A DNA stretch of 35,295 nt from a virus. The DNA lies in IMG/VR virus record IMGVR_UViG_3300020470_000080, positions 1 through 35,295 of that record, one strand, 5' to 3'. The notes under the pieces were generated by a model, which was not told the origin of the DNA, made no database searches, and saw nothing but the letters and a program-made list of their open reading frames with translations. Positions 1,232-23,606 of the stretch are shown here, one piece after another; position 1 is the stretch's first letter, and every line of letters begins with the position of its first letter. The position numbers were made by a program, and so were the translations under genes.

Positions 1232-1276
1232 GAACGATCCGTTCCGTGTCGGCTTACTTGCGACCTCTTATGAGGT
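1232..1276 (-). promoter_or_regulatory. Structured 5' leader with two hairpins
   Basis: Between the likely transcription start (about 1284) and the ATG at 1226, the minus-strand RNA can form two 5-bp hairpins: ACCTC/GAGGT with a 4-base loop (1263-1276) and GAACG/CGTTC with a 3-base loop (1232-1244). The second is 5 bases before the start codon. The leader is visibly more GC-rich than its surroundings. It could control translation or stability; this is inference. Confidence 0.4.
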
Positions 1277-1283
1277 TGAACGT

Positions 1284-1301
1284 TGTGTTAATACTAACAC
1301 A
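1284..1301. promoter_or_regulatory. Operator-like perfect palindrome over the -10 element
   Basis: TGTGTTA and TAACACA form a perfect 7-bp inverted repeat separated by 4 bases (18 bp in all). It covers the -10 hexamer at 1291-1296 of the adjoining promoter. Size and position are those expected of a repressor or activator site; no regulator is recognised in the window. Confidence 0.5.
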
Positions 1302-3126: not shown

Positions 3127-4638
3127 TTACCAACCACCAGTTAAAAAGTATTGTTCTGCTGACCAATTCCTTGCACGTTTAGTAACTGCTATTGCTGTAG
3201 GAATATAATTTGTATTATCATTACTAACTATAATCTCATCAGTAAGTTCTCTACCTAAAACAGTATTAGCAGTAATAACATTAGTAACACCAATTGAAAT
3301 ATGAGCATTTTCATCCATTATCTGCAATCTTCCAGCATTTAATGTAATTCCACTGCTGAAATGGAATCTATCATTAGAATCCTGCCACAAGATAGACTTA
3401 TCTGTGGTTCCTTTAATTATTATTCCACCACCAGTAGCAGTATTATTAGTAGGATCTCCTACAACAAAAGTTCCAATACCAACACCATTACCATTAATAA
3501 CCTCACTTAAAGTAATAGTTGATGAAGCTATTGATACTATAGTAACTCCAGTACCTAAATCTAAATTACCTGTAGCTTGAGCTAAGGAAACAGAAGCTGT
3601 AGGTGTTAAATTATCTGTAGGATTACAATTAGTAACAATAGATGATCCAGCACTTATCGATCCTACAAAATTTTCAGTTTCAGTAACACCTAAAACAATA
3701 TCTTTTGATTTTGTTTTTAAAACATGTGATTGTATATCAGTAGTATCACCTTTAATAGTAACATCGCCAGTAAATGTAGATATTCCTATCGTTCTTAAAT
3801 TTCTAACATTATCAATATCTTCATTATAATTTACACTCTTAATCCTTGTATCACCAGTTATATTAACTGTACCAGTTAAGATTGAATTACCTAATACATC
3901 TAATTTTGTACTAGCAGTTTTTCCTAAACCAAGATTACCATCAAGTCTAGTATTACCTAAAACAACAAAATCATCACTTGTAGGTAATCCACTTATTGCA
4001 TAATATAATCTACCGTGGCAAAGAAATGTTACCTTTGATCCAGGATTTGAAAATCCTATTAAAGATTGCCCTGAACCTAATTTTATATCAGGTCTAGTAT
4101 ATGTTTGCCCTGGTCCAATCTGAAAACCATAATCTAGATACTCATCAGAATCAAAATTAGATACACCACCTTCAGAAATACCCAACTTTACAGTTGCTAC
4201 ATCTGGTCCTAAATTACAAATAGATAATGTTACCTTAGATTCAGATCCTGAAGGAGCAGTAAATAATGCTTGCTTTAATACCCCAGTAGATATTGTATGA
4301 CTTAAAACTCCAGATCTTACAGGGTTTATAACATCATTAATTGTTTCACCATAAAATAAAAAGTTTACATCAGTTTCAGTTGACCTACATACTAATTCTT
4401 GACCTGCACCCAAATAAATATTTTCAGTTTCAATTACTTCACCATATTTAATATACCTATTATATTCAAAATATCTTACATCACTACCAAATCTATATCC
4501 AAGTTGGATTCTTGAAGGATTATAATTCTTACTACCGATAGTTACTTTACCTACCGTTAATTTATTGGTAGGACCTGTAAAAAGGTTGATAACTGGACCA
4601 GGAGATGGTATAGTAGCGTTTAACAGACCAAATGCCAT
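3127..4638 (-). CDS. Virion structural protein, fibre-like, with duplicated N-terminal domain
   Basis: A 503-residue beta-rich protein with no signal peptide. Residues about 27-100 and 135-213 look like two copies of one domain (strand patterns around KVTIGSKNYNPSRIQLGYR and KVTLSICNLGPDVATVKLG, each ending in FLFYGE or FLCHGR). The rest is fibre-like: GNLGLGKTASTKLDVLG, TGTVNITGDTRIKS and a FTGDVTIKGDT stretch, similar to proteins at 18400-19155 and 24354-28061. The C-terminus is aromatic (AEQYFLTGGW). An exact T4 late-promoter motif lies 29 bases upstream. Likely a tail fibre or head decoration protein; which one is unknown. It is separated from the other structural genes by the sugar cassette. 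Confidence 0.8.
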   Translation of the reverse strand: MAFGLLNATIPSPGPVINLFTGPTNKLTVGKVTIGSKNYNPSRIQLGYRFGSDVRYFEYNRYIKYGEVIETENIYLGAGQELVCRSTETDVNFLFYGETINDVINPVRSGVLSHTISTGVLKQALFTAPSGSESKVTLSICNLGPDVATVKLGISEGGVSNFDSDEYLDYGFQIGPGQTYTRPDIKLGSGQSLIGFSNPGSKVTFLCHGRLYYAISGLPTSDDFVVLGNTRLDGNLGLGKTASTKLDVLGNSILTGTVNITGDTRIKSVNYNEDIDNVRNLRTIGISTFTGDVTIKGDTTDIQSHVLKTKSKDIVLGVTETENFVGSISAGSSIVTNCNPTDNLTPTASVSLAQATGNLDLGTGVTIVSIASSTITLSEVINGNGVGIGTFVVGDPTNNTATGGGIIIKGTTDKSILWQDSNDRFHFSSGITLNAGRLQIMDENAHISIGVTNVITANTVLGRELTDEIIVSNDNTNYIPTAIAVTKRARNWSAEQYFLTGGW

Positions 4639-4666: not shown

Positions 4667-4674
4667 TATTTATA
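4667..4674 (-). promoter_or_regulatory. T4-type late promoter motif TATAAATA
   Basis: Exact match on the minus strand, 29 bases before the ATG of the virion gene at 3127-4638. Late genes of T4 use this -10 box through the phage sigma factor gp55. Exact copies before two other structural genes lie at similar distances (33 and 36 bases). Confidence 0.65.
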
Positions 4675-6060: not shown

Positions 6061-6403
6061 AGATCCTGTGCGAATCCTCATCAAAATGTTGTGTAGAAAA
6101 CTCAAACAGTTCTGAATCTACAAGAGCAACCATTTGATGTCTCATCTTTCTTGGAATATGGAATTTATCTCCAGGTTCCAAGATTTTACTTTGGGAAAGT
6201 CCTATATCACTATCGAAACCATAATATAAATGCATCTTACCTGACTGTAAATAAAAAGTTTCATCCTTCAAAAGATGATAATGCCAAGAGCATCTCTTAC
6301 CTTTACTAAAGAATAAAAGCTTACCACAATATTCTGGGGTGTTACATATCCACTTCTCGTAACCCCATCCTTTAGGAACAAATTTAATCTCTGAAGAAGT
6401 CAT
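6047..6403 (-). CDS. Cupin-domain protein, sugar isomerase-like
   Basis: A 118-residue single cupin. Seen: FVPKGWGYEKWI (residues 8-19), the first metal motif SWHYHLLKDETFYLQSGKM (two His and a Glu), and the second motif GDKFHIPRKMRHQM. The opening KGWGYEKWI and the ending TQHFDEDSHRI resemble cupins found with nucleotide-sugar genes. Function could be a sugar-phosphate isomerase or binding protein; I cannot choose. I set the start at 6403 because AAAGGA lies about 10 bases upstream; the ATG at 6424 has no ribosome binding site. It overlaps the HAD gene by 20 bases and is the last gene of the operon. Confidence 0.78.
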   Translation of the reverse strand: MTSSEIKFVPKGWGYEKWICNTPEYCGKLLFFSKGKRCSWHYHLLKDETFYLQSGKMHLYYGFDSDIGLSQSKILEPGDKFHIPRKMRHQMVALVDSELFEFSTQHFDEDSHRIFRGD

Positions 6404-6728
6404 CACAATTGATTCCTTTGTCATCTATGAATAAATCTGCATGAGGTTTACCCATAATTAATTCATTATACTTACAACCCCAATCATCTAATTGTTGTTT
6501 TGTAAGATCAAATAAAACTGCCTCTGCCGATACAGATGCAATAGAATGGGGTTGATCAGAAAATCTACCCATAGCCCGTGCAGTGAAGTAGATAATATAA
6601 TTACCCTCATCGTAAAGTTTATTTATTACCTTGATCTTATCTTGCCAAGGTTCTGCTTTATGGTAATCTCTACCAACCGTTGGAGTACAGATTGTACCAT
6701 CAATATCAACGCAATATCTTTTTGACAT
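6384..6728 (-). CDS. HAD-family phosphatase, EcbF/BcbF-like
   Basis: A 114-residue HAD hydrolase without a cap domain. Seen: the nucleophile motif VDIDGTIC (Asp8 and Asp10), motif II IIYFTARAMG (Thr in FTAR), and a late GKPHADLFIDDKGI with the acidic pair. The order and the closing GKP...DDK...F match small phosphatases of capsule-biosynthesis loci (EcbF/BcbF). In this setting it could remove the 7- or 1-phosphate of a heptose, the step done by GmhB in bacteria, but it lacks the zinc-binding cysteines and longer length typical of GmhB, so that role is inference. Overlaps the kinase gene by 23 bases. Confidence 0.85.
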   Translation of the reverse strand: MSKRYCVDIDGTICTPTVGRDYHKAEPWQDKIKVINKLYDEGNYIIYFTARAMGRFSDQPHSIASVSAEAVLFDLTKQQLDDWGCKYNELIMGKPHADLFIDDKGINCDDFFRD

Positions 6729-7443
6729 CTTCCTCCGTTAAAATGTAAGTGCCTGGTTGCTGAACAGCAATTCCTGCTGCTCTATTACCCAACATAAGGG
6801 ATTGATCTATGTTGTTAGTAGTTATATACCCGTAGACAAGTGCTGCTAAAAAAGTATCTCCAGCACCAACTACATCATATACATTTACTTTTTCTGCTGG
6901 ATATAAAGTTTGTTTGTAAATACAACCTTCAGATCCTTTAGTGACAATTAGATTCTCTATATTATAGTTATCTAATTTCTCATATTCTACATCATTTATT
7001 TTAATAAAGCAATTAGGTCTATTAGGAAGTATAGATTTTTTACTATCAATAAACACAGGACAAGATGAACTATCCACAATTTCAAATATTTTTTTAGTTG
7101 TAAGATACCCCTTATCATAATCAGATATAACAACAGCATCAAAAGTATCTGTTGCTACAGGTATCATAAGAGGTTTTATCTTTTCCTCATTATCAACCCT
7201 AAGTATTTGCTGATTAGATTTCTCATCAATAAATCTTGTCTTAACTAACTGTTCATTATTAGTTAAGAATGTAATATCAAGACCAAATGATTGTAAGTTT
7301 AAACAAACATTACCTGCCATACCAGATTTAGTTTGTATCTTAGCATAGTCTAAAATAGGAACAGGTGCTTCTGGACTTAACCTAGTACATCTACCATAGA
7401 TGTATTCATCCTCACAACTATCACCCAGTAACAGTACTTTCAT
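6706..7443 (-). CDS. PfkB-family heptose-phosphate kinase-like (HldE kinase half)
   Basis: A 245-residue ribokinase-type sugar kinase. Seen: the start MKVLLLGDS, YGRCTRLSPEAPVP, the substrate-binding GMAGNVCLNLQSFG, QQILRVDNEE, the DYDKGY motif (VVISDYDKG), VTKGSEGC, and the ATP/anion-hole motif DVVGAGDTF. LSPEAPVP, MAGNV and QILRVD are typical of HldE1/RfaE, which phosphorylates heptose-7-phosphate at carbon 1. It is about 70 residues shorter than the bacterial kinase domain. I chose the ATG at 7443 because the protein fold begins there; the frame is open further upstream inside the neighbour. Overlaps the nucleotidyltransferase by 23 bases. Specificity is inferred. Confidence 0.87.
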   Translation of the reverse strand: MKVLLLGDSCEDEYIYGRCTRLSPEAPVPILDYAKIQTKSGMAGNVCLNLQSFGLDITFLTNNEQLVKTRFIDEKSNQQILRVDNEEKIKPLMIPVATDTFDAVVISDYDKGYLTTKKIFEIVDSSSCPVFIDSKKSILPNRPNCFIKINDVEYEKLDNYNIENLIVTKGSEGCIYKQTLYPAEKVNVYDVVGAGDTFLAALVYGYITTNNIDQSLMLGNRAAGIAVQQPGTYILTEEDVKKILR

Positions 7444-7837
7444 TAATCTTTTTGATGACATTACTGCTGGCATATCCACCTACTCTAGGAAGATGTCTTA
7501 CCTCACCAGCGTGTTCCCAACCAACTACATCACCATCCCTCCAATCATCACCAAGTAATAATATATCAGGTTGATATAGTTCAATTAGATCTTCTAACTC
7601 TTGTCTACTACCAAAGGTATGAACAACATCAATATACTTGATTGCCTCAAGCATAGCAACCCTATAATGAAGATCATTTATAGGGCGATGCTCTCCTTTG
7701 TCAGTACGAATCTTTTCATCCGTGTCTGTAGCAACTATTACTTTGTTTCCTAGAGATCTAGCAACCTTGAATAGTTCTATGTGTCCTGGATGAAGAATAT
7801 CGAATGTGCCGTTGCACCAAACAATATCATTCTCCAT
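7421..7837 (-). CDS. HldE-type heptose-1-phosphate nucleotidyltransferase-like
   Basis: A 138-residue cytidylyltransferase-fold enzyme. Seen: CNGTFDILHPGH (residues 8-19, the HxGH nucleotide motif), ATDTDEKIR, RPINDLHYRVAML, DILLLGDDW and a C-terminal GYASSNVIKKI, the counterpart of the YSTTNIIxxI helix of the family that carries ADP-heptose synthase. In bacteria this domain is fused to the kinase as HldE; here the two halves are separate neighbouring genes. Glycerol-3-phosphate cytidylyltransferase is the main alternative, less likely because of the kinase beside it. The start overlaps the carbamoyltransferase stop (TAATG). Confidence 0.88.
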   Translation of the reverse strand: MENDIVWCNGTFDILHPGHIELFKVARSLGNKVIVATDTDEKIRTDKGEHRPINDLHYRVAMLEAIKYIDVVHTFGSRQELEDLIELYQPDILLLGDDWRDGDVVGWEHAGEVRHLPRVGGYASSNVIKKINESTVTG

Positions 7838-9600
7838 TATAGTTGTTCCTCTTCCTCTTCATTATATACTCTAGAAACAATACGATTATTATTTCTATCA
7901 ACAAAAACTAACTTCTGTATCTCTGGTAGATACATATAATTAATTTTACTATTACTTAAAGTATCAATTGCATCTTCAATAGTTTCCACTAAAGGATCTC
8001 CACCAAGATTAAATGAAGTATTAAATAATAAAGGAACTCCAGATAATTTTTCAAACTCACTAATCAATTCATAATAATTTTTATTTTGTTTCTCTGTGAC
8101 AGTTTGTATTCTACAAGTACCATCTACATGAATAACTGAAGGAATCTTTTCCTCTACACCAGGTAAACAATCAACAGCGTACATCATATGAGGTGCATCA
8201 TCCATTCCTGCAAGATCAAACCACTCATTAACTTTATCAGCTAGAATAGAACAAGCAAAAGGTCTAAAGTACTCTCTATGCTTTACACTATTAATAATAT
8301 CTTTACCATCCTTAATAGTAGGATCAAATAATATAGAACGATTACCAAGTGCTCTAGGACCACCTTCAGATCTTCCTTGGAAGATAGTAACTATCTCACC
8401 TTTACGGATTAATTTTGCAACATCTTCAGGAGAAGTATCTGTTACTTTACATCCATCATCAATCTGCTCTAAATATGAATCTGGATCATACTGTGGTCCA
8501 TAATATAAGTTATCAAGTGGTTTTAATTTTGGAATATTAGGATTCCAATAATTATTAGCATATACATGATATGCACCACCCATAGATGTTCCACCATCAT
8601 GTGAAACAGGTTCTACAAAAATATTTAAATCTGGAAAATGTTTTACAAACTTATAATTACCAACACAATTCAAAGCATATCCACCAGAAATACAAATATT
8701 CTTTTCTCCAGTTATATCATGTGCTTTTTGAATTAAAGCAATCATTTGTTCTTCAGATTCTTTTTGGATAGCATAAGCCATATCCTTTTGTATTTGAGTC
8801 CATTCACCCCTCTCATGCTTATTATAATCTTCTAAAATCTTTGGAAATCTGGTTGCAAGAAGTCTAGCACCATTAGGATAATTTGGACTGAATAAATCTC
8901 TATTACCAAATCCATTTCTAAACATTGGAGGTATATCTGAATTTGGTTTTCCATATGGGGATAAACCCATTGTCTTTCCAGCTTCTATAGAAGACCACCC
9001 ACAATATTCAGTTACAGCCTCATACTCTTTAACTATACCAGGAAATTCAGTAACTACAACTTCAGGATTAGAGTAATCATCACCTACAGGTACATAACCA
9101 ATAGCAGCAGAAGTTCCTAAGTGCTTATATACAGATTCAAGTTTAAGAGGTTTCTTTGCTTTAAATATACTTTCAAATTCAAATACTACATCATCAACAA
9201 TCTTTGTACCTAAAAAGCTTCCTGCACCATCAACAATAACACAAGCAGCACTATCAAAACCAGAATTTACAAAAGCTGCACTAGCATGCATCTGATGATG
9301 TATAGTATCAATGAATGTTACTTTAAATTCAAACTTCTTTCTAGATAATTTTCTTACCCATCCTTTATACAAATCTTCCCCAGTCCAATCACATTTAGGA
9401 CCATTACGATGTGTATGACATACAACCAAATGATCTATGTAATCAACATACTCAAATACTTTTTTTAAACCTAATAAAGGTGTTCCATCACGTTTCCATC
9501 TGGATAATCTTTCTTCTTCAAGATAAAATACTATTTCACCATCAACCAATAATGTAGTACTGGAATTATGTCCACGGGCACAAGATACAATGATACTCAT
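7837..9600 (-). CDS. NodU/CmcH-family carbamoyltransferase
   Basis: A 587-residue enzyme that transfers a carbamoyl group from carbamoyl phosphate through a carbamoyl-AMP intermediate, usually to a sugar hydroxyl. Seen: N-terminal ARGHNSSTTLLVDGEI and LEEERLSRWK, the metal-binding HHQMHASAAF (near residue 153), VDGAGSFLG, CISGGYALNCVGN, the C-terminal (YrdC-like) GRSEGGPRALGNRS, YFRPFACSIL, and FNTSFNLGGDPLVET. The length is typical. Such genes occur in some cyanophages next to sugar genes. It starts 8 bases after the glycosyltransferase stop. The acceptor is unknown; a heptose or derivative is suggested by the adjoining HldE and HldD genes. Confidence 0.93.
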   Translation of the reverse strand: MSIIVSCARGHNSSTTLLVDGEIVFYLEEERLSRWKRDGTPLLGLKKVFEYVDYIDHLVVCHTHRNGPKCDWTGEDLYKGWVRKLSRKKFEFKVTFIDTIHHQMHASAAFVNSGFDSAACVIVDGAGSFLGTKIVDDVVFEFESIFKAKKPLKLESVYKHLGTSAAIGYVPVGDDYSNPEVVVTEFPGIVKEYEAVTEYCGWSSIEAGKTMGLSPYGKPNSDIPPMFRNGFGNRDLFSPNYPNGARLLATRFPKILEDYNKHERGEWTQIQKDMAYAIQKESEEQMIALIQKAHDITGEKNICISGGYALNCVGNYKFVKHFPDLNIFVEPVSHDGGTSMGGAYHVYANNYWNPNIPKLKPLDNLYYGPQYDPDSYLEQIDDGCKVTDTSPEDVAKLIRKGEIVTIFQGRSEGGPRALGNRSILFDPTIKDGKDIINSVKHREYFRPFACSILADKVNEWFDLAGMDDAPHMMYAVDCLPGVEEKIPSVIHVDGTCRIQTVTEKQNKNYYELISEFEKLSGVPLLFNTSFNLGGDPLVETIEDAIDTLSNSKINYMYLPEIQKLVFVDRNNNRIVSRVYNEEEEEQL

Positions 9601-9608: not shown

Positions 9609-10712
9609 TCAAGATTTTTTAGCTTCTATTTCTAGTATTTCATCAATAGGTTTTTTCTTTTTCTTAGATTTTGGTACAGTAAAAGGTTCTCCAAACTTCT
9701 TAACTGGTGGTGTAACATTGGTACTTGCAGATATTGCCATTGGTCTATCAGATTTTTTTGGAGAAAATGCTTTTAAACCGAAATTTTTTGAGTTGCTTCC
9801 TACTTTATCCTTAATAGATTTAACAATTTTTTTAACAGTATCCTTATCAACAACCATTAAATCCTCATTATTTCTATCAGCATTAAGATCTATTGTCATT
9901 CTAATAGGACTATACCGTCTCTTATCTTTACCATTATCAATAATAGTGAAATCTTTACTTTCTGGATATGATATATTCTCAGGAAAAGTTGACCCAATAA
10001 CAACAGTTGCTGGTTTACCAACAGCATGTGCTAAATGTTGTCCTACACTATCACAACCTAAGAAATAATCTGCAGCATTAATTACACCTGCCCATCCATT
10101 TAAACCAATACCAGTAGGTTTAGCAACTCCAAGAGATGTCCATCCTGGTATCTCAATTTCAGACATTAATATTACACAAAAATCTTTATTCAATTCTTTT
10201 ATTATTTCAATAATATTAGAAACTTCAAAACTTCTGCCAGTACTATCGTATATAAAATTACCTTCTGCTTTAGCACTCTGACCAAATGGTTGGAATATTA
10301 CAACCTTATCTTTCTTAAGGGTTTCCTTTACTTCTAAAATTAGATTATGTCCAGTAATTTGATCTTCCTTATTAAGATCTAAATTGATCTTCCCAGTTTC
10401 TGGTACTTCATCAAGTTCATTAATCTCTATATCAAAAGCCTGTATAAGATTACACTTCTGATTAAAGTATTGATTAACTCTATAAGGTTCTGGTGATATA
10501 ATCTTCTTATCTTTTAACTTCTCTTCAAATAAATCTTTATGACCTAAAGGATAAACATGATCCCTTAAATTCTTATTATTTAAATACAACTCAGACCAAG
10601 ATTCAGAAACGATTATAAAATCATCATTCCCATTTTCTTTATGTCTCTCTAATGCTGGCATAGAGCAAAGCACACGCCCTGCTCCACCATTAATGAAAAA
10701 AGCTTTATTCAT
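9609..10712 (-). CDS. Glycosyltransferase family 9-like (heptosyltransferase-like)
   Basis: A 367-residue protein resembling ADP-heptose:LPS heptosyltransferases. Seen: the N-terminal FFINGGAGRVLCSMPAL (the usual GxGD replaced by GGAG), a central VVIFQPFGQSAK, and the C-terminal donor-binding part YFLGCDSVGQHLAHAVGKPATVVIG, close to the family motif DSGxxHLAxAxGxPxVxLFG. A long basic tail rich in Lys and Pro (from about residue 310, ending KKKKKPIDEILEIEAKKS) lies beyond the GT-B fold and may be disordered. It is the first gene of the six-gene sugar operon, behind a strong promoter, with a GAGG site about 10 bases before the ATG. Donor and acceptor are inferred. Confidence 0.82.
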   Translation of the reverse strand: MNKAFFINGGAGRVLCSMPALERHKENGNDDFIIVSESWSELYLNNKNLRDHVYPLGHKDLFEEKLKDKKIISPEPYRVNQYFNQKCNLIQAFDIEINELDEVPETGKINLDLNKEDQITGHNLILEVKETLKKDKVVIFQPFGQSAKAEGNFIYDSTGRSFEVSNIIEIIKELNKDFCVILMSEIEIPGWTSLGVAKPTGIGLNGWAGVINAADYFLGCDSVGQHLAHAVGKPATVVIGSTFPENISYPESKDFTIIDNGKDKRRYSPIRMTIDLNADRNNEDLMVVDKDTVKKIVKSIKDKVGSNSKNFGLKAFSPKKSDRPMAISASTNVTPPVKKFGEPFTVPKSKKKKKPIDEILEIEAKKS

Positions 10713-10799: not shown

Positions 10800-11876
10800 T
10801 TAACTATAGCAAACGTGAACCTTACCAAACTTACCAGAATCTCCATAGAGACTATTACCACCACCCATTGCGTGTGAACCCCATCCACCAGCACCAGGCA
10901 TCCTTAAGCAATTCATCGCCCAAGCACTACACTGGCATCCACAACAGTTACCAGAAGTATATTGAACACAACATTTACTTTCATATGCTTGAGTGCCATC
11001 CCAAACTGGAGCATGTATTTCATAACCATAATGGTTGCCATCCCAACAATTTCTTGGCCATATTCCACGAAGACCGTATACAACATTCTCCGCAGTTGGA
11101 TTTTCTATATCTTTAATATTTCCATGATACCCTGCACCAGCAATGTACATAACTTCACCTTGAGAGTTCTCACCATCCCAACACCAGTCAGAACCTTGGT
11201 TACAGAATCTCATTCCGTTACCATTAGTATAATATTGGTATCTACAAGTACAAGGTGTACCAGTCATTGCCATCCAAGTACCCATTGATCCTTGTCCACC
11301 AGAAGCACAGAAATTACATAACTTACAACCTTGAACATAAGAACAATGTCCAGACCATCTTCGATGGTTCTCTGTTGTATATCCATAACAACAGTATGCA
11401 CAACCAGCACATAATGTATATGTCCAACCAGCTTCTACTGGAACAATTACAGAAGCATAAGCACCTGTTGAACCAAAAACTGTATGTCCACAACAGCAAG
11501 GTGGTTTATTAGCACCACCACCTGCACCCCAAATTTGGAATCTTGCTTTTGTTACTCCTGCTGGAACAGTCCAAGTACAGCTAGCACCACAACGATAATA
11601 TCCTGATGTATCACAAACTTCTACTTCTCCAGTCCAACCACCACCAGTGTAAATTGTCCAAAGAGAAGTATCATCTGGACAGAACCAATGAGCTTTCTCA
11701 TTACCAGTGCTTCCTAACCAAGCTTTAGCACATTCAACAGGGTCTCCAGCAGCACCACCACCAGAAGATGGATCTTTAGCATTTAGCTTAAGATCAAATA
11801 AACATTTTTGTTTTTCAGCTATATCCTTTTTTAATGCAGCTTGTTCATTAAGTGCACTATAAATTAATACATCCAT
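10800..11876 (-). CDS. Cysteine-rich, glycine-rich virion protein (paralogue of 12587-13633)
   Basis: A 358-residue protein with about 30 cysteines. An N-terminal helical part (residues 1-45) is followed by CTWTVPAGVTKARFQIWG, a glycine-rich AGGGANKPPCCCG, then GAYASVIVPVEAGWTY and LCAGCAYCCYG, and many more Cys pairs. The WTVPxGVT...WGAGGG core is the same glycine-rich adhesin module as in 20040-21689, but with cysteines added. No signal peptide or zinc-enzyme motif is seen. It begins right after the stop of the 224-residue gene with GGAGG 10 bases before the ATG. I infer a virion surface protein stabilised by disulfides or metal; the function is unknown. Confidence 0.78.
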   Translation of the reverse strand: MDVLIYSALNEQAALKKDIAEKQKCLFDLKLNAKDPSSGGGAAGDPVECAKAWLGSTGNEKAHWFCPDDTSLWTIYTGGGWTGEVEVCDTSGYYRCGASCTWTVPAGVTKARFQIWGAGGGANKPPCCCGHTVFGSTGAYASVIVPVEAGWTYTLCAGCAYCCYGYTTENHRRWSGHCSYVQGCKLCNFCASGGQGSMGTWMAMTGTPCTCRYQYYTNGNGMRFCNQGSDWCWDGENSQGEVMYIAGAGYHGNIKDIENPTAENVVYGLRGIWPRNCWDGNHYGYEIHAPVWDGTQAYESKCCVQYTSGNCCGCQCSAWAMNCLRMPGAGGWGSHAMGGGNSLYGDSGKFGKVHVCYS

Positions 11877-12551
11877 TTAGACAGCACCTCCAATCCCACT
11901 AATAGAGACTTTATTAAGTTCAATACTAACATCAGAAGGAATCTTTGGAATAGTTCCTACTGCATCTGGAAGAGTTACAAACTTCCAAGGTTTATGATAA
12001 GGATTGGCAGCAAGATATGTTCCTATACCTGCTATATAATGATCAATCTTAGTGTTTATTGTATCACCAAAATCATATTGATCTGCATAAGTTTTTACAA
12101 AATCTCTTCTCCTTACTGCTTCATCCGCATTAGGATTCTCTAATTTCTTTAATATTTGCTTAAATGTCCATTGACTATTAGCAAAATCCCAATAAACCTC
12201 ATAAGCATCTCTTAAATCAGGATTGTCAATCTTCTTATATACATCACCATTACTCTGGGTTTCATCAGTATAAGTATAACTATAAGAATAATCATCAACA
12301 AATTGATGTGATAATGCATATGCCATAGGAAGTTGTGAACTATCCTTTGCATTTATAGTTTTAACTAACGAACCACTAGGAGCAGCAGATTTAGTATCAA
12401 CCTTTTCAACTTTACCTGTTGATGCACTAATCCACACATCAAAATCTTCTGGTCCTTTATAAGTATAACTTCCTGTCACATTAGTAGATATACCAGCGAC
12501 ATACAATTCAGTCGGAAGAAGATATGTAAACGATGATGTAATGTTTGCCAT
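11877..12551 (-). CDS. Virion-associated hypothetical protein
   Basis: A 224-residue protein between the two cysteine-rich paralogues. It has no cysteine, starts MANITSSFTYLLPTELYV, and is beta-rich at first, with a helical middle (WTFKQILKKLENPNADEAVRRRDFVK) and an ending SISGIGGAV. I recognise no family; the tyrosine-rich DDYSYSYTYTDE near residue 90 is unusual. A late-type TATAAATA box lies 33 bases upstream and the gene abuts the next one, so it is probably a late virion or assembly factor for its cysteine-rich neighbours. Confidence 0.72.
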   Translation of the reverse strand: MANITSSFTYLLPTELYVAGISTNVTGSYTYKGPEDFDVWISASTGKVEKVDTKSAAPSGSLVKTINAKDSSQLPMAYALSHQFVDDYSYSYTYTDETQSNGDVYKKIDNPDLRDAYEVYWDFANSQWTFKQILKKLENPNADEAVRRRDFVKTYADQYDFGDTINTKIDHYIAGIGTYLAANPYHKPWKFVTLPDAVGTIPKIPSDVSIELNKVSISGIGGAV

Positions 12552-12583
12552 TGTTTTTAACAGTCTCTGATTTTTCTTTTAGT

Positions 12584-12591
12584 TATTTATA
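12584..12591 (-). promoter_or_regulatory. T4-type late promoter motif TATAAATA
   Basis: Exact minus-strand match, 33 bases before the ATG at 12551 and overlapping the last codons of the upstream gene. Confidence 0.6.
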
Positions 12592-13633
12592 AGTAGGAAA
12601 CACATACCATTCCCATTCTACCAATGTCAGCACATCCATGATTATCTCCACCACAAGTAGCATAACCAAATGCACCAGCATTAGGTATTTGATGAGCACA
12701 GTAACATGCTTGATAGCAACATCCACCATTCTCATTACTAAAGCAGAAGCAGCAGCAAGATTCAGATGGGAATCCATATACACCAGGTGACCAAGTACAG
12801 AATTCATTTGCACCATGATCATAATGTGCATAACTAAACTGTCCAGGAATACCCCAAACATCACCATTTGTTGCTTCCCCATAGAAAGTCTTACAACTTG
12901 CAGTTGATTGATAATGCATATCTCTATATCCTTCTGGATATGCTACACCACCAGTTTCAGTACTTTCTGAACAATAATCTGTTCCAGTATTACAAATACA
13001 AGAACCCATCCACATACAATAACTATCACTTATAACCTGTACACATTGCTGTCTTGATTTAACTTCACAGAAAATACTACTTTCTCCACCTTCAGCACAG
13101 AAGTTAGTTAATCCATTACCTGTTACATAAGATGGGCATCCATCTTGAGTCATCTGGTTTCTTTCTGTATAACAACAGTAAGCACAACCAGCACAAAGAT
13201 TATATGAATCACCAGCAGTTACTGGAATAATTACAGAAGCATAAGCACCAGATCCACCATTAGGAGATCCACCACAACAACAACTAGTTCCTGATCCACC
13301 ACCAGCACCCCAAATTTGGAATCGAGCACAAGTTACGCCACCTGGAACAGTCCAAGTACACTGAGCGTTACACCTTCTATAAGATGAAGTTTCACAAACT
13401 TTAAAACCACCAGTCCAAGAACCGCCTGAAGCAGCTGTCTTTGGTATCATACACCATAAACCAGTGTTAGGAGCACCAGCACCTTTAAGAATTTCAATAC
13501 AATCTGCTGCATTACCAGCACCACCTTCTTCTGGTGCAGCAGAAGTTATTCCAACCTGTAAAGATGCTTGTTCTGCCTTCAATTCTTGATTAATCTCTTG
13601 AATAGCATTATAGGTCAATACATCAGCTGCCAT
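12587..13633 (-). CDS. Cysteine-rich, glycine-rich virion protein (34 Cys)
   Basis: A 348-residue protein with 34 cysteines (almost 10 percent), far above normal for a phage protein. Layout mirrors the gene at 10800-11876: an N-terminal helix (MAADVLTYNAIQEINQEL), an Asp/Cys linker, then RRCNAQCTWTVPGGVTCARF, WGAGGGSGTSCCCGG, GAYASVIIPVTAGDSY, LCAGCAYCCYTE, a long Cys-rich tail (for example SESCCCFCFS) and a closing MGMVCVSYL. AGGT lies a few bases before the ATG at 13633. The glycine-rich core and the genomic place suggest a tail or fibre adhesin. Cysteine roles (disulfide or metal) cannot be told from sequence. Confidence 0.78.
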   Translation of the reverse strand: MAADVLTYNAIQEINQELKAEQASLQVGITSAAPEEGGAGNAADCIEILKGAGAPNTGLWCMIPKTAASGGSWTGGFKVCETSSYRRCNAQCTWTVPGGVTCARFQIWGAGGGSGTSCCCGGSPNGGSGAYASVIIPVTAGDSYNLCAGCAYCCYTERNQMTQDGCPSYVTGNGLTNFCAEGGESSIFCEVKSRQQCVQVISDSYCMWMGSCICNTGTDYCSESTETGGVAYPEGYRDMHYQSTASCKTFYGEATNGDVWGIPGQFSYAHYDHGANEFCTWSPGVYGFPSESCCCFCFSNENGGCCYQACYCAHQIPNAGAFGYATCGGDNHGCADIGRMGMVCVSYL

Positions 13634-13676: not shown

Positions 13677-13997
13677 TTATACTGCTTGTTCGATACCAAA
13701 TATAGTAACCGTAACATCACCAGTTGATGAATAAGCAACAATATTACGAGCTGCCTGTAATGATAATGCAGTCCTTTCAAGAACACCGTTCTTAGGGATA
13801 GATACATCGTGTTCAATCCATTCGGCATTGGTAGGAGTACCAGTAGATGCCAGTGCAAGTCTTACCAAAGCTGGAGCAGTTGCAGATCGATTCAAAACAT
13901 TTACATTGACAACAGAGTGAGTGTTTGCAGGAACCGTATATACTGTAGTATTGGTTGTAGCAGCCAACGCACTTTGTCCTAAAATACCAGAAGCCAT
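13677..13997 (-). CDS. Small beta-sandwich virion protein
   Basis: A 106-residue protein starting MASGILGQSALAATTNTTVY, followed by TVPANTHSVVNVNVLNRSATAPALVRLALAS and a repeated hydrophobic beta pattern, with IPKNGVLERTALSL in the middle. It looks like the same fold as the 109-residue protein at 28067-28396 and the two copies inside 3127-4638: Y-TAP/VPA at the start, an N-x-S/D turn, then VxLxL and a late G-L-E. Such small proteins occur among cyanophage structural genes. An exact late-promoter box lies 36 bases upstream. Exact function unknown. Confidence 0.75.
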   Translation of the reverse strand: MASGILGQSALAATTNTTVYTVPANTHSVVNVNVLNRSATAPALVRLALASTGTPTNAEWIEHDVSIPKNGVLERTALSLQAARNIVAYSSTGDVTVTIFGIEQAV

Positions 13998-14032: not shown

Positions 14033-14040
14033 TATTTATA
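14033..14040 (-). promoter_or_regulatory. T4-type late promoter motif TATAAATA
   Basis: Exact minus-strand match, 36 bases before the ATG at 13997 of the small virion protein. Confidence 0.6.
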
Positions 14041-14053: not shown

Positions 14054-17000
14054 TTAAATTTGTCCAGCAAAGAATTCAGATACCTGAATACCTTTTGTTA
14101 GATCAGATCTAAGAGTAGCTATATCAGCAACAGTCTGTGTTCTTTCAGAAGTTAACCCTGCAGTTGCATGATTTTGTGCCATTACTAGATGTTCTGCATC
14201 TTTAGTAGCGACATAAGTTCTAATTGCAGCCTGTGTTGGAACTTTCTCATGACTGTTTTGTGACATTGTTCCATCAGTTGAGAACTCATTAATTTGAGCA
14301 CCTAACTGAGCACCAATTGAACCCAATCTCAATGAAGTTAGACCAGATAGATCGAAAGCACTAGCATTCAATGTTGCTGATCCAGTTGCCTGGTTAACAC
14401 GGAAGTACTTACCAACACGGAAGTTACCCTGTTCATCAGTAGAAACATAGAATACCCTTCCTGGGAAGTCCTCAGTAATTTCCTGAGTTTGAACTGGATC
14501 TACTGATGGAACTGATGGCCAATTAGTAGTTGCAGTTCCTCCTGTACCAACTTGTAAGAAGTCATGACCAGTTAATCTTGCCTGACTGTAGATATAACGT
14601 ATCCTTATATCCTGTTCATCAAATGCCTTAGCAGCTTTTTCTTCAACCAAACTTACCTGAGTAGTACCATAAGTATCTGTAGATACTCCAGTAACCTTAA
14701 CAAATTCATCATCTATTTTAAGATAATTGCCAATAGAATCCCAGAATCTTGTTGATAATGTTGCTCTGAAATTGGTAGAAACTCCAGTAAAGTCTTTATT
14801 AATTTCAGCAGCACTAATATAACTAGTTGCTCCAATAGCAACGAATGTAGAACCAATTGCATATGAAGTAGCAATACCAGCACCATCTTGTTCTCTAGTA
14901 ACAGTCATTGAGTTTGCAGTTGGGAAACTAACAATCTTACAAAGTTCGTTAGTTGGTGATAAACAATATTCACCAGGGTTAAATCCACTAATAGTACTTG
15001 TACTGAATGTAGTATCAGTATCAGAAGCAGGAGTTAATAGCGTAAATGAACCAGAATTAGCAGGATAATCAATTATAGATGTATTACCACCAGTATGTGC
15101 AGCACCTGTTGTAGTCCATTGTGCCCTGTCAATATTGATAGTACCTTTTCCAGTAGGACCAACTTGACTTACACCTGAAATAACAAATGTAAATGGATCA
15201 GCACCAGTAATGTTATCATCATTATAACCACCATTACCAAGTCCAGTAATAAACTCTATACTACCATTCTCTTCAAGAGTAGGTGAAGTTCCTAAACCAG
15301 AAAGAACAAGTGTAAATCCAGTTTGACCTTGGTTTGCACTAGTATTATTAATAAGATCTGCAGTAACTCCTGAAGTTTGTCCTGTAATAGTTTCACCTGG
15401 AGCAAAACCAGTACCAACACCAACTGCACCCTGACTAATTACTGAATAATAAATTTGATCTAATGTAGTTCCTTGAACAGTATTAATTTGTCCCCAAGCA
15501 CCAGAAGTATTACCTCTAATTCTTTCACCAATTTGGAAATCTCCTCCAACTTTAGTATCAACATCATATCTAAGTACTAATCCTTCAATTTGTCCTTTTC
15601 TAAAATCCTCAAGAGGACTGAATCCAGAACTTACAACACCATACTTACCCCAAGAACTGTTTCCAACAAGAGATCTAAGTCTTCCACCACGAGTAGCAGC
15701 ATAACTTATATGGTTATAATATGTGAAACAAGAAACTGTTTCTGCCACAGCACCATCTGTGATCCAGAATGCCATTCCTTCATCGTGAATGTTTGTGAAT
15801 GAGTCAAACACGATAGATTTGTTAGAAGGTGTTGCCGATCCATCTACAAATTGTCTATGAACTCCACCATCTACTATTGCACCAACACCTTTAGTTGATT
15901 TTGCAGAACAGTTTGATACATATGGAGATTTAATAACTCTACTTTCTGGATTTAATGCAACAAATACACCTTTAATATGTGCATTATTAGGATCATATGA
16001 ATTTGCAGTGAAGGTAAGCTCAGTCGCACCAAGATTTTGTTGCTTATCAACTTCTATTTCAGTACCACTAATAAATCCACTAACCCTTGTTGCAGCAGAT
16101 ACACCAGCACCAGTTACAGTTGTTCCAACTAAATCTGGGAATAAATTTGTACCAGATACTTTAGATCCAGTAATAGTACAAGTTCTAGTTGTAACTATAC
16201 CTGCTGGAGTAAATCCAGTAAGATCTTCCATTAGAATATCTTTAAGCATCGTAGCGTTACTTAACATAAACATTGTAGAATGCTTATTTGGTCGAGTAAC
16301 AGCAGATGTAATTGCTATATCAGTTCCACCATTCTCCCAAGTATCTGATGTTGTCCAAGGACCACCAGAAAGATTACGAATTTGAATTGCTGTCTCAGCA
16401 TAATCAGAATCTAAAATAACAGCACATTTAGTTCCTGCTCCATTCCATATTGAAGAACCATATGAAACAGTAGTAGGAGCAGATGCCAATACCAAATCTT
16501 GATGGTTAGATGAATCTGCTTTACCAACATTAACTGTAATTGTGTCTGCTGTAGTAGCAGTGATTGGTATAGCAGTGTTACCAAAAACTGGATCTTTTAC
16601 TCTTGGATAAGCATGTTGAGTTTTATGATTATCCTGAGAACAAGTAAATACTAATCCGTGTCCACCAATTTGAATTGTATTAGCAGTAGTTAAAGAATGT
16701 CCACCTACCTTTAATACAAGATCTCCTGTTGCAGAATCATAAGTTGTACCAGATAATGGCGTAAGTGCAGGTCCAGAATTAGGAGTAATACAACCAGCAA
16801 CACCACTTATAAATGTATGATCGTACTGAACACCAGCTTTAATTGTAGATGTTCTTAAGTTATCACCAACAATTGATACACCTTCTGGAACTACAATAGG
16901 AAGTGTTTCAGAATATGTTCCTGCCTTTACATAAATTGTTGCAGGTCCAGTTGCTATACCACAAGCTTTTTGAATAGTAGCAAATGATCTACTAATATTT

Positions 17001-18007
17001 GATCCATCATTAGTATCTTTACCTTCTTCTGTTACATAGTAAACTGGATGCGTTACTCCAGAATTTTCCCAATTGGGCATACCGTCACTACTCATTGAGA
17101 GTACTTGACCGTTAGTTCCTTTCGGTAATCTTGCAGCACCAGTTGTATAGTAAACAATGTCACCCTGTGTGGTCATCACATTGTTTGATGCACCCTCAGC
17201 TAACATACTCCAGTAAACACTGGTTGTATCCGTTGAAGGATCTTGACCTATACTTCCAGCAGTTGAAACACCAACATAACTATTACTTAATCTCTTTACA
17301 GCATCACCAAGTTGGTAAGTAGTATTAACATCCCAGTTACCTCTCCAATTAAAACCTTTATTAACTAGAGACCAATTAGCTACTGTTGTAGGAGGAATAT
17401 TTACACTCGTTGTAATTGCAACGTATGAATATCCACCCCAAGTAACAACATCACCTTGAGTATAATCAGTTGTACTTGTCCAATCACCAACTACATTAAA
17501 TCCTGTAGTTATAATATCCCAATCATTACTTAAGTTATATGCAGGTGGTTTATTTGTATGAACACTCTTTGAAACATATGTGTAACCACCATAAGTTACA
17601 ACATCCCCATCTTGATACTGTGCTACAGAACTCCAAGTATCTTCATAATTAAATGACTGTACATATTCTACTACACTACCAGTAGTATCCGCTTCATCAA
17701 AAGTTGCACCAGAAGTAAATCCAGCAGTTACTCTATACTGAGTATTACCATATTTAAATATATCGTTTATCTTATACCAATTATTATTCTGCCATTCTCC
17801 TTTATGAGTAATGCCTTCCGTATGCAATGACCAATTAGAAAAATCTGAAGAATAAAAAAGATTCTCGTTTCCAGCAGATGTATGATTAGTTTTACAAACG
17901 TAAGTATTGGCACCATACTTTATAATGTCATCAATGACATACGCAGTACTAGTAGTCCAATCATTACGCCAATTAAATTTTAATCTGCCAAGTCTAAATT
18001 CAGCCAT
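14054..18007 (-). CDS. Large modular tail fibre protein with carbohydrate-binding repeats
   Basis: A 1317-residue protein. Residues 11-268 hold five tandem repeats of about 50 residues, each with W, then Y..GD/DD.V/I.Y/W.G..Y (for example DWTSTTDYTQGDVVTWGGYSY, repeat four), like carbohydrate-binding module families 5 and 12. A spacer follows, then VYYVTEEGKDTNDGS and a right-handed beta-helix (VPEGVSIVGDNLRTSTIKAG), as in 28401-30875. A module with FTCSQDNHKTQHAYPRVKDP lies near residue 460. The C-terminal FYVSTDEQGNFRVGKYFRV is also shared with 28401-30875. The role is a host-binding fibre, inferred from the modules and size. Upstream AGGAT could be its ribosome binding site. Confidence 0.85.
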   Translation of the reverse strand: MAEFRLGRLKFNWRNDWTTSTAYVIDDIIKYGANTYVCKTNHTSAGNENLFYSSDFSNWSLHTEGITHKGEWQNNNWYKINDIFKYGNTQYRVTAGFTSGATFDEADTTGSVVEYVQSFNYEDTWSSVAQYQDGDVVTYGGYTYVSKSVHTNKPPAYNLSNDWDIITTGFNVVGDWTSTTDYTQGDVVTWGGYSYVAITTSVNIPPTTVANWSLVNKGFNWRGNWDVNTTYQLGDAVKRLSNSYVGVSTAGSIGQDPSTDTTSVYWSMLAEGASNNVMTTQGDIVYYTTGAARLPKGTNGQVLSMSSDGMPNWENSGVTHPVYYVTEEGKDTNDGSNISRSFATIQKACGIATGPATIYVKAGTYSETLPIVVPEGVSIVGDNLRTSTIKAGVQYDHTFISGVAGCITPNSGPALTPLSGTTYDSATGDLVLKVGGHSLTTANTIQIGGHGLVFTCSQDNHKTQHAYPRVKDPVFGNTAIPITATTADTITVNVGKADSSNHQDLVLASAPTTVSYGSSIWNGAGTKCAVILDSDYAETAIQIRNLSGGPWTTSDTWENGGTDIAITSAVTRPNKHSTMFMLSNATMLKDILMEDLTGFTPAGIVTTRTCTITGSKVSGTNLFPDLVGTTVTGAGVSAATRVSGFISGTEIEVDKQQNLGATELTFTANSYDPNNAHIKGVFVALNPESRVIKSPYVSNCSAKSTKGVGAIVDGGVHRQFVDGSATPSNKSIVFDSFTNIHDEGMAFWITDGAVAETVSCFTYYNHISYAATRGGRLRSLVGNSSWGKYGVVSSGFSPLEDFRKGQIEGLVLRYDVDTKVGGDFQIGERIRGNTSGAWGQINTVQGTTLDQIYYSVISQGAVGVGTGFAPGETITGQTSGVTADLINNTSANQGQTGFTLVLSGLGTSPTLEENGSIEFITGLGNGGYNDDNITGADPFTFVISGVSQVGPTGKGTINIDRAQWTTTGAAHTGGNTSIIDYPANSGSFTLLTPASDTDTTFSTSTISGFNPGEYCLSPTNELCKIVSFPTANSMTVTREQDGAGIATSYAIGSTFVAIGATSYISAAEINKDFTGVSTNFRATLSTRFWDSIGNYLKIDDEFVKVTGVSTDTYGTTQVSLVEEKAAKAFDEQDIRIRYIYSQARLTGHDFLQVGTGGTATTNWPSVPSVDPVQTQEITEDFPGRVFYVSTDEQGNFRVGKYFRVNQATGSATLNASAFDLSGLTSLRLGSIGAQLGAQINEFSTDGTMSQNSHEKVPTQAAIRTYVATKDAEHLVMAQNHATAGLTSERTQTVADIATLRSDLTKGIQVSEFFAGQI

Positions 18008-20039: not shown

Positions 20040-21689
20040 TTAATACTGCCTCTGAACACCCTCTACACCTTCTGTAACGGTTGCATCATACTGATCAGTT
20101 CTATCTACATTAGTAGAAGGGAATGATCTGTTTACTCCACTTACTTGTCCCCAGATAATTCTAACAATACCGTTTCCACCCCATCCAGCAGGTGAACTAC
20201 CATTTGCTCCTCCAGCACCACCACCAGGGAATCCACCATCAGGAGTTGTTCCACCACCCTGTCCATGTTGATTCATCTGACTATTTCTATCATAATTATT
20301 ACCCAGATTAGTACCACTTGCCCACTCACTATTAGAAGACTCGTTAGAATAACCTCTTAAACCAGTATTATATGCGGTTGATCCTCCTCCACCACAGAAG
20401 TCATTAACACCCTCATTACTACCATTATTATTTGCATCACCTTTAGCACCATTAGTTCCTTCACCGTAGACACCAGTTCCTCCACCACCAGCAGAGTAAC
20501 CTTGAGAAGCACCGTTATTAGAGCATGCACCGCCCCCACCACCATTTTGCCCAGCCTGTCCTTGCTGTCCTGAATAACCTGGATTACCACAGCGTCCAGA
20601 GTTTGAACCACCTCCTCCATTATAACCGCCACATCCACCGCCACTTTGACGAGATCCACCTTGATGGTATCCAGAACCACCTTGTCCACCACCATCACTA
20701 TTGGTATTAGGGAAACTATTTGAATTATTATACCAACCATCACTTTGGTTTCCATCACCACCTACTCCACCATTCGCTCTTGCGTAAACAGTGCCACCAT
20801 ACTGAATATAAGAATCTTGTCCATTAGGAGAATCAGTTACACCCCAAGATGTAGCGAATCCACCAGCACCAACTTTAACAGTAACAGTAGAACCTGGTGT
20901 TACAGCTATACCATTTTTATATGCTAATCCACCTCCACCACCTGATGCACCATCATGGTTAGTTTCACCTGCACCACCTCCACCAACACAAACAACAGAT
21001 ATTGCTGTTACTCCTCCAGGAACAGTCCAACTATAAGTTGCTTGTGTATTCCAATCTCCAGCATGGAAAACGTGCCCACCCATATTAGAACCTTCTGATG
21101 TATCATTTATAGTTACACTAGGACTAGAACCAACTCCCTGAGTAAATCCAGCATCAACAAATATATCAACCATAAATGTTTCTGTACCTTCTGTTGTACT
21201 ATCTTCAGATGGTGTACAATCAAACGTTCCAGTATTACTATTAATTGTAAAGCTTCCTGAACTTGGTGAAAAATCATCTACACTACTTACTTTCCAATAT
21301 AATGTAGTACCATCTGCAACCTTAGTCGTAGTAACAGTAAATGATACCGTAGAACCTTCATCAACAGCAGATGCACTTGCTGTTACTGCATAAGTTGGAA
21401 AGGTGTCTACTTCAGTTATTGTATCTACTAAATTCTTAGAATCGTATGTAAGTGCCCATCCCTTTTCATCACTACCGATTATCTCATTATACCCCGTAAC
21501 TAATCCAACAGCATTATATAAAATACTTTCATACCTATTTTCTCCCAGAATTACTGAGGTTACATTATTAGATGAGTTTGTTGTAATACCAGTAGCTCTA
21601 GTAAAAGCCTCATTACTGAGAATGGAGCCACCGCCACCACTACCTTTACCTCTTTGGTTATTTACACTTAATCCTACAAAACGTCCCAT
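20040..21689 (-). CDS. Glycine-rich tail adhesin-like protein
   Basis: A 549-residue protein. After a short N-terminal part, residues about 90-210 look like a Calx-beta-type domain (AVTASASAVDEGSTVSFTVT, with an acidic SEDSTTEGTETFMV). A glycine-rich region follows: YSWTVPGGVTAISVVCVGGGGAG, then many GG and GGGG runs with Asn, Ser and Tyr. This polyglycine-type architecture is like the adhesins of T-even phages (gp38 type) and the core of the cysteine-rich genes. Host-recognition tip is a likely role, inferred. The upstream gap has (TTAT)-type repeats with several boxes one base off the late promoter. Confidence 0.8.
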   Translation of the reverse strand: MGRFVGLSVNNQRGKGSGGGGSILSNEAFTRATGITTNSSNNVTSVILGENRYESILYNAVGLVTGYNEIIGSDEKGWALTYDSKNLVDTITEVDTFPTYAVTASASAVDEGSTVSFTVTTTKVADGTTLYWKVSSVDDFSPSSGSFTINSNTGTFDCTPSEDSTTEGTETFMVDIFVDAGFTQGVGSSPSVTINDTSEGSNMGGHVFHAGDWNTQATYSWTVPGGVTAISVVCVGGGGAGETNHDGASGGGGGLAYKNGIAVTPGSTVTVKVGAGGFATSWGVTDSPNGQDSYIQYGGTVYARANGGVGGDGNQSDGWYNNSNSFPNTNSDGGGQGGSGYHQGGSRQSGGGCGGYNGGGGSNSGRCGNPGYSGQQGQAGQNGGGGGACSNNGASQGYSAGGGGTGVYGEGTNGAKGDANNNGSNEGVNDFCGGGGSTAYNTGLRGYSNESSNSEWASGTNLGNNYDRNSQMNQHGQGGGTTPDGGFPGGGAGGANGSSPAGWGGNGIVRIIWGQVSGVNRSFPSTNVDRTDQYDATVTEGVEGVQRQY

Positions 21690-21714: not shown

Positions 21715-21735
21715 TATTATTTATTTATTTATTAA
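21715..21735. repeat. TTAT tandem repeat between the protease and adhesin genes
   Basis: Four TTAT units (21717-21732) and a partial fifth overlap the stop codon of the protease gene. On the minus strand they give overlapping AATAAATA boxes, one mismatch from the late promoter TATAAATA, 26-43 bases before the adhesin ATG at 21689. Confidence 0.55.
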
Positions 21736-23606
21736 TGTGAGAATGATATACCAGTAACAGCAATACCAACCATAGATGCTTTTCCATTATTACAAAAGGG
21801 ATTTAATAAAACTCTTCTCTTTGAACTCCTTAAACCATAGTTACTACCCCAATAGAGTGCATCAGTTGCACTATTACTTTGATATGGATCATAAAATCCA
21901 GGAGTTGATGTAGTAGCATCATTATCTGAAACCTCAACTGAACCATGAGTTAATACCCATTTCCTAGCTTGTGCTCTAGTTGCATCTGGTTGTGATTGCA
22001 AATATAACGCCATAACTCCAGCAAGATTTGGACAAGACATACTGGTTCCCTGAAGATACTCATTGTAAAAATTAGGATCTCTAGGATCATCATATCCACT
22101 ATTATACGGACTAAGAATAGATGATCCAGCAGACCAAATATCAATCTTAGGTCCCCTACAACTAAAGTAAGAACATCTTTCTTGTCCATTTGTTGTCTGC
22201 CTAAAATTATCCATAGAACCAGAAACTATAACCTGATCCTCTCTACCTTCAGCACCAATAGCAGGTGTTCCTGACCTATTATAATGATGACCCCTATCAC
22301 TATAATAAAAAGTAGCATTAGTTATTTCATTATCATAATCTATCCCTCCAGGTATATCCTGCTTATCAACAGAATTACCTGCAGAAAAACAAAATACTAT
22401 ATCTTTACAATCAGGATCATCAAGTATTTCATCAACTTCTGCCTGTTTAACTGTATGAACTGCAGTAAACTGCTTATAAGATGCATTCAAATTATCCATA
22501 TAATATACAGATGGACAAGTTGTTGAATTCATATTTGATTTATTATATGAAACTCCTCTTTGTGTTGCATCATAATCAAGATCACTACGAAAAAATTGTC
22601 TAAATCCCCAACTACCATTAACAACAGTAGGATTTCGTCTACCAGTTTCTGGATTAATTGGTTTATTTTTATGCCAAACTTTAATATAATCAAATCCATC
22701 GCAAGGATCTGCCCATCCTAAATCAGATCTATCAATACAAGCAATAGACCATATATTTGCTTCAAAAGCCCATCCAAATTGATTTCCTGCAGCAGTTCCA
22801 GCAACGTGACTACCATGCCAACTAATAGTCCAAGGATAAGAACTATATCCCTTCTCCATTAATAATGCCCCATCAACATCATAATAATTTAATGGATTAG
22901 ATCCAGGAGCAGCTAATCCTTCCGCAGCCCAATTGATACCATATTCAGATGCACCATGAATTAATATATCTCTTACCCTAGTATGTTGTTCACAATTAGT
23001 AGGAGAAGGAACAGGACTTGTAGATCCTGGTTTTAAAAACTCTGGATGGTCCCATCGAACCCCAGTATCCATAATAACAACATCAACATTTTTTCCAGAT
23101 AATGTAAATGGAATATCTATATCTACCTGACCTGCATCAACAAATTTATTAGCTCTATATGAATGTCTATACAAACCCCATTGAGTATAATCCAATTTAG
23201 GTGGAGCAGTAACAGGACTTGCCCCACTCCTCATATTTCTAACATCATACTTATACCTATTAGCATCTATAAACTTATCAAATCCTTCATCATATTTTCT
23301 CTGCTCTAATACATACTCATTATATAATGTAGATTTTTCAACAAATCTAATCTTAGGATGTTTTCTTAAAACTTCTGCTTCAGCAGGAGACATTTCATAT
23401 ACACTTCTCTTAGGAGAACACTTCATCTCCGAAGTACAATCAATCTTTCTATTTGGAATATCATCTATATTATTTTCGTTAATTATATAATTATGAATCT
23501 CATTCCAATCTTCAGCATCATTTACGTAAACAGTATATGGTTGTTGCTTATCTGAATGAACAACAAGAACTCTACCTGTTTTTGGATCTGTTGTTGTAGC
23601 AATCAT
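21732..23606 (-). CDS. Subtilisin-like serine protease (S8) within the tail cluster
   Basis: A 624-residue protein with a full S8 catalytic set: Asp180 (VVIMDTGVRWDHPEF), His264 (SWHGSHVAGTAAG), the oxyanion Asn411 (FSAGNSVD) and Ser522 (QGTSMSCPNLAGVM). Residues about 70-92 (MSPAEAEVLRKHPKIRFVE) look like the end of an inhibitory propeptide, so it may self-activate. The C-terminal 50 residues are outside the catalytic core. No signal peptide. Its place among adhesin genes and tight overlap (4 bases) with the upstream gene suggest it is late and packaged, perhaps to process fibre proteins or to attack the host surface; neither is shown. Confidence 0.93.
   Translation of the reverse strand: MIATTTDPKTGRVLVVHSDKQQPYTVYVNDAEDWNEIHNYIINENNIDDIPNRKIDCTSEMKCSPKRSVYEMSPAEAEVLRKHPKIRFVEKSTLYNEYVLEQRKYDEGFDKFIDANRYKYDVRNMRSGASPVTAPPKLDYTQWGLYRHSYRANKFVDAGQVDIDIPFTLSGKNVDVVIMDTGVRWDHPEFLKPGSTSPVPSPTNCEQHTRVRDILIHGASEYGINWAAEGLAAPGSNPLNYYDVDGALLMEKGYSSYPWTISWHGSHVAGTAAGNQFGWAFEANIWSIACIDRSDLGWADPCDGFDYIKVWHKNKPINPETGRRNPTVVNGSWGFRQFFRSDLDYDATQRGVSYNKSNMNSTTCPSVYYMDNLNASYKQFTAVHTVKQAEVDEILDDPDCKDIVFCFSAGNSVDKQDIPGGIDYDNEITNATFYYSDRGHHYNRSGTPAIGAEGREDQVIVSGSMDNFRQTTNGQERCSYFSCRGPKIDIWSAGSSILSPYNSGYDDPRDPNFYNEYLQGTSMSCPNLAGVMALYLQSQPDATRAQARKWVLTHGSVEVSDNDATTSTPGFYDPYQSNSATDALYWGSNYGLRSSKRRVLLNPFCNNGKASMVGIAVTGISFSH

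Follow-up and report, generated by a model that had tools for sequence, protein, structure and literature searches.

We asked what two related, cysteine-rich proteins encoded on either side of a third gene might do in a marine cyanophage, and what their cysteines are for. The window, by which we mean the whole stretch of DNA analyzed here, is a virus record of 35,295 bases from a P-SSM2-like cyanomyovirus. Its first 25 kb align to the Prochlorococcus phages P-SSM5 and P-SSM2 with ∼82% identity over 67%.

Two cysteine-rich proteins and their predicted fold

Protein A (12587..13633, minus strand) contains 34 cysteines in 348 aa (9.8%) and protein B (10800..11876, minus strand) 30 in 358 aa (8.4%); the positions, lengths and counts given in the original prediction were exact. 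The other proteins of the window have mostly ∼1% cysteine, with nearly all counted genes at 0-2%, and at 1% cysteine the probability of such counts is ∼1e-22 for A and ∼1e-18 for B. The two are paralogues, as had been proposed, with CTWTVP, IWGAGGG, AYASVI, LCAGCAYCC and CCC present in both in identical order. The cysteine clusters had been described as common to both proteins, which is correct for CCC and LCAGCAYCC; CCxFC occurs in A only. A glycine-rich protein elsewhere in the window (20040-21689), said to have almost no cysteines, is indeed cysteine-poor with 6 cysteines in 549 aa. The dN/dS values of A and B (0.30-0.47 against two relatives), together with the presence of orthologues in P-SSM2 (PSSM2_304 and PSSM2_306, with PSSM2_305 between them), identify A and B as real coding genes. 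All three P-SSM2 genes are annotated as hypothetical, and A and B both match phrog_35878 and phrog_4205, which PHROG lists with unknown function. The databases and literature searched agree with the earlier statement that no function was described.

The structure models of A (pLDDT 82.3, pTM 0.82) and B (pLDDT 80.1, pTM 0.79) are confident and have an N-terminal helix of ∼30 residues followed mainly by beta strands. In Foldseek searches the best solved structure for A was the fiber of cyanophage Pam3 (7ypx, E 7e-7); next came the tail tip of Bxb1 and the ALK glycine-rich domain. With B the first two changed places, the tail tip of Bxb1 (9d93, E 1.7e-5) ranking above the Pam3 fiber (E 2e-5). 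A and the Pam3 fiber gave modest TM-scores of 0.36 (by query) and 0.47 (by target), so the kinship to solved structures is at fold level. Among predicted viral structures, A matched many proteins annotated as glycine-rich domain proteins and also gp38 of Syn9. On these models, A and B have a glycine-rich adhesin fold similar to Pam3 gp24 and gp38, with the TM-scores modest as stated.

At the sequence level, neither A nor B matched a Pfam family, the cutoff of Gly_rich_2 (PF21722) being missed, and a sequence search for relatives of known structure returned none. Gly_rich_2 matches were obtained for 12 of 97 A/B relatives (best E 1.5e-5). Profile comparison connected the A/B family to the cysteine-rich proteins in the same gene slot of S-SSM7 (E 2e-17) and S-CAM1 (E 1e-19), several of which score above the Gly_rich_2 cutoff. 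A and B keep the core order of this family (WTVP...WGAGGG...GAYA) but differ from it by having cysteine at many conserved positions. None of 24 pattern matches in genome contigs was confirmed as a cellular relative, and an N-terminal DVLxYxA motif, sought in the other proteins of these loci, was not found there.

The gene between A and B and its neighborhood

Gene M (11877..12551, minus strand), which lies between A and B, encodes 224 aa with 0 cysteines. It had been called an unrelated gene, a view that no longer holds: M is conserved, co-inherited with A and B and homologous to tail-fiber assembly chaperones. The M of the window gave no significant Pfam match, Phage_tail_APC (PF16778) included, and no credible relative of known structure in a sequence search. 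In other viruses, the C-terminal parts of proteins in the M slot pass Phage_tail_APC, a tail assembly chaperone family, at 38-40 bits. The M family aligned by hhalign with same-slot proteins over 195 columns (E 1e-15), and three proteins of that set carry Phage_tail_APC above cutoff. These sequence comparisons make it very likely that M is a tail-fiber assembly chaperone.

Upstream of A lie a gene for a 106-aa protein (13677..13997, minus strand; phrog_11338 tail fiber, E 2e-7), which is kept in most loci, and one for a 1317-aa tail fiber (14054..18007, minus strand; phrog_9851 tail fiber, 1609 bits). The region ∼1114-1268 of this tail fiber is its best-conserved part in distant loci, with mostly 57-64% identity, and the tail fiber is likely the scaffold that carries the adhesins. 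It also has four matches to CBM_5_12, a carbohydrate-binding family, and the tail-fiber cluster includes a gene for a subtilisin-type protease (Peptidase_S8, 21732-23606, minus strand, 82 bits). Elsewhere in the window, a glutamine riboswitch-like element (1234-1285, minus strand) matches Rfam RF01739 with 35.3 bits (cutoff 35) and is overlapped by a match to RF01704 (31.4 bits); the stretch 1229-1265 is 97% identical to S-SSM7 and S-SSM6a.

The motif TATAAATA, the T4-type late-promoter consensus, occurs on the minus strand 36 bases before the 106-aa gene (14033..14040), 33 bases before M (12584..12591) and 29 bases before a 503-aa tail-fiber gene (motif 4667-4674, gene 3127-4638). These three copies, all intergenic and close to a start, are fewer than expected by chance in the window. 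The motif is thus not over-represented, and its reading as a promoter is based on position only; given its presence, late expression of A, M and B would be expected.

The module is widespread. Besides the P-SSM2 orthologues, searches of viral contigs yielded 111 A/B family members longer than 250 aa, each with 6-12% cysteine. At nearly every locus two cysteine-rich genes surround one cysteine-poor gene of 210-290 aa, the exception being two near-identical loci in which both cysteine-rich genes lie side by side with M after them. The middle genes of different loci are mutually homologous, which, together with the arrangement of two genes flanking one, indicates joint inheritance of the pair with M. 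Some carriers encode gp23, the T4-type major capsid protein, and only a few encode psbA; the module is therefore present in T4-like viruses and may extend beyond cyanophages.

These data support the original description of A and B as adhesin-like, which now draws on the fold, the relatives at the Pfam level, the tail-fiber synteny and the late-promoter motifs. We hold with good confidence that A and B act as host-recognition adhesins, and they are probably the tips with which the tail fiber grips the host. Their evolution is faster than that of M and the neighboring glycosyltransferase (dN/dS 0.15-0.30), as would be expected of host-facing tips. That they are instead non-adhesin virion or secreted proteins with a glycine-rich fold is quite unlikely, as the tail-fiber synteny, the chaperone, the fold and the late-promoter motifs speak against this reading.

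The closest known system is that of Pam3 (PMC9608196), whose fiber protein gp24 (PDB 7YPX) begins with a helix and ends in a glycine-rich tip, and whose chaperone gp25 combines one beta with one helical domain. A and B share with gp24 the N-terminal helix, the glycine-rich distal domain and the adjoining dedicated chaperone, and M, judged from its sequence, resembles gp25 in its beta and helical build. In contrast, the glycine-rich domain of gp24 has 39% glycine (PMC9608196), whereas A and B have ∼15% over the whole protein and 8-10% cysteine. A and B also differ in that they appear to share one chaperone and are followed by genes for a glycosyltransferase and a carbamoyltransferase. T-even gp38, for example of Salmonella phage S16, is likewise a glycine-rich adhesin at the fiber tip, a likeness drawn via gp24 only, with which the Pam3 paper compares S16 gp38 (PMC9608196).

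Linkage of the probable adhesins to sugar-modifying enzymes

The next gene of the cassette encodes a GT9-like (heptosyltransferase-like) glycosyltransferase (GT; 9609..10712, minus strand), assigned from Pfam and the conserved gene order. The window protein scores 17.8 bits with Glyco_transf_9 (PF01075), below the cutoff of 22, and 30 of 33 members of its family match (best E 1.8e-7). It is followed by a NodU-type carbamoyltransferase (7837..9600, minus strand), for which Carbam_trans_N (77 bits) and Carbam_trans_C (197 bits) are both above cutoff. Then come sugar genes usually named after the ADP-heptose pathway (6384..7837, minus strand; Pfam CTP_transf_like and PfkB, and P-SSM2 annotation), namely an adenylyltransferase (7421-7837), a kinase (6706-7479) and a phosphatase-like/phosphoheptose isomerase (6384-6728), all on the minus strand. 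The order tail fiber, 106-aa protein, A, M, B, GT and carbamoyltransferase is kept in most loci, and in most cyanophage loci sugar-nucleotide genes come after the carbamoyltransferase.

We tested this linkage in reverse by three scans that started from the GT, taking the best 80 loci per scan and counting loci, some of which come from one contig or from near-identical contigs. Among these best loci, 185 of the 205 viral ones with at least 3 kb available upstream had between one and four proteins of 5% cysteine or more directly upstream of the GT (median cysteine 9-10%), and 205 of 206 had a carbamoyltransferase within 4 kb. In the first scan alone, with a limit of 2.5 kb and four loci of annotated phages added, the carbamoyltransferase was near the GT in 68 of 69. 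One of the 20 exceptions among the 205 loci, L103, is on the same contig as L065, which carries the trio elsewhere. The cassette of that contig is rearranged, and ∼4 kb with other genes separate the GT and carbamoyltransferase from the A-M-B trio that comes after them. Nine further exceptions were inspected: two have a glycine-rich protein with 4.8-5.0% cysteine in the slot, and in seven the GT is in another setting. Contigs with a GT9-like gene apart from adhesins include L253 (7992-9912), L261 (7992-9915) and L308 (7986-9909), in which the gene right after the GT encodes a protein with an N-terminus of approximately RxFxFGCSYTxYxWPTWA that by eye appears SGNH-type hydrolase-like.

Cyanophage isolates served as a control. 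Among 12 isolates, the GT is present in four (P-SSM2, S-SSM7, S-CAM1 and S-CAM3), and the cassette adhesins of these have 8-11.6% cysteine. The Gly_rich_2 proteins of the isolates lacking the GT, and the unlinked one of P-SSM2, have 0-1.8% cysteine and 22-33% glycine, a glycine range that omits one partial Gly_rich_2 match in Syn1 (0.7% cysteine, 11.6% glycine). Hence, cysteine richness tracks the cassette and not the fold. The strongest fact of this locus, which the original prediction had missed, is that cysteine-rich adhesins are linked to both sugar enzymes, the GT9-like transferase and the NodU-type carbamoyltransferase. The literature searched, mostly outside subscription journals, contained no paper on the cysteines or on the linkage of adhesins and cassette.

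As the substrate of these enzymes we tentatively suggest the fiber or the adhesins, and host LPS could equally be the target. GT9-type enzymes encoded beside an adhesin have a precedent in the BAHT heptosyltransferases such as TibC (PMC4358343); in contrast to these, the GT family of the window lacks a sequence match to TibC structures and is accompanied by a carbamoyltransferase. Compared with structures, the GT family profile gave no BAHT match and a weak match to a lipopolysaccharide heptosyltransferase (E 0.8). The most serious alternative, which we consider possible, is that the GT and carbamoyltransferase alter the host surface polysaccharide for superinfection exclusion or receptor change, the link to the adhesins being that both concern the same receptor. 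This would agree with the annotation of such genes in large cyanophages as LPS clusters of unknown use (PMC3037559) and with the minority of contigs in which the GT is apart from adhesins, but the linkage across divergent adhesins and viruses is tighter than co-selection by one receptor needs.

A proposed role for the cysteines

The A/B family alignment has the conserved cysteine spacings CxxCxxCC, CCC and CxC. In a set of 84 sequences, Cys153 is missing from every one of the seven that have no Cys88 (nominal p 8.6e-6 across 2080 pairs), a coupled loss that was not repeated in a wider set of 172 sequences including a divergent subfamily and is, for the 84-sequence set, suggestive of a disulfide. 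With this coupling and the expected extracellular role in mind, we consider disulfides formed after lysis the likeliest role of the cysteines and give them about an even chance of being the main one; against them, no oxidase gene was identified in the cassette. Full pairing was considered and rejected: 48 of the 84 members have an even and 36 an odd number of cysteines, which is no signal for it, and in the 36 odd members not all cysteines can pair within one chain. The idea that cysteine merely replaces glycine in the lattice was also discarded, as Tyr, Arg and Lys are over-represented, and Gly is under-represented, among the other residues that occupy the cysteine columns within the family.

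Alternatively, the cysteines could bind Zn or Fe at the fiber tip, as in metal-stabilized phage spikes and fibers; metal clusters had been offered beside disulfides in the original prediction. The conserved spacings are compatible with this, and uptake of metal in the reducing cytoplasm would need no oxidase. We regard metal binding as unlikely, since a conserved His is absent from the alignment and conserved acidic partners are nearly so, and the Tyr, Arg and Lys enrichment at cysteine columns is unusual for metal ligands.

Even less probable is that the cysteines are themselves modification sites, with S-glycosylation or thiocarbamoylation of their side chains by the GT9-like enzyme and its neighbor, the carbamoyltransferase, yielding adhesins coated with carbamoyl sugar: BAHT enzymes modify Ser and not Cys, the GT profile hit none of the BAHT structures and had a lipopolysaccharide heptosyltransferase as a weak match, and the adhesin-GT linkage may be inherited gene order. 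The association of cysteine richness with the cassette instead of the glycine-rich fold, the adjoining sugar-nucleotide genes in P-SSM2 and most cyanophage loci and the existence of adhesin-glycosylating heptosyltransferases (BAHT/TibC; PMC4358343) are the points in its favor.

Overall, the explanation that we prefer, and consider reasonably likely, is that of a fiber-borne adhesin pair with its chaperone and with cysteines that are oxidized after lysis. A and B would form a host-recognition pair on the tail fiber, with the N-terminal helix used for oligomerization or docking and the distal glycine-rich domain displaying cysteines at many positions. Their chains would fold in the reducing cytoplasm with M, the assembly chaperone encoded between them, and after lysis the cysteines would oxidize, so that disulfides lock the loop lattice. 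As a weaker part of this proposal, the GT9-like enzyme and the carbamoyltransferase would most likely place a carbamoylated sugar on the adhesins, the fiber or the host surface.

In the annotations examined, no receptor-binding proteins are assigned in P-SSM2-like viruses, which infect Prochlorococcus. Our analysis names candidate adhesins and a candidate chaperone across hundreds of uncultured viruses and describes, in the A/B family, a cysteine-rich version of a fold that usually relies on glycine. It is a more doubtful, speculative idea that a self-contained 'adhesin glyco-cassette' exists in marine T4-like viruses, in which the cysteine-rich fiber-tip adhesins, their chaperone, the GT9-type transferase and the carbamoyltransferase would jointly give carbamoyl-sugar-modified adhesins, possibly through cysteine side chains. 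Modification of adhesins would give a testable purpose to sugar genes that have been filed as lipopolysaccharide clusters (PMC3037559).
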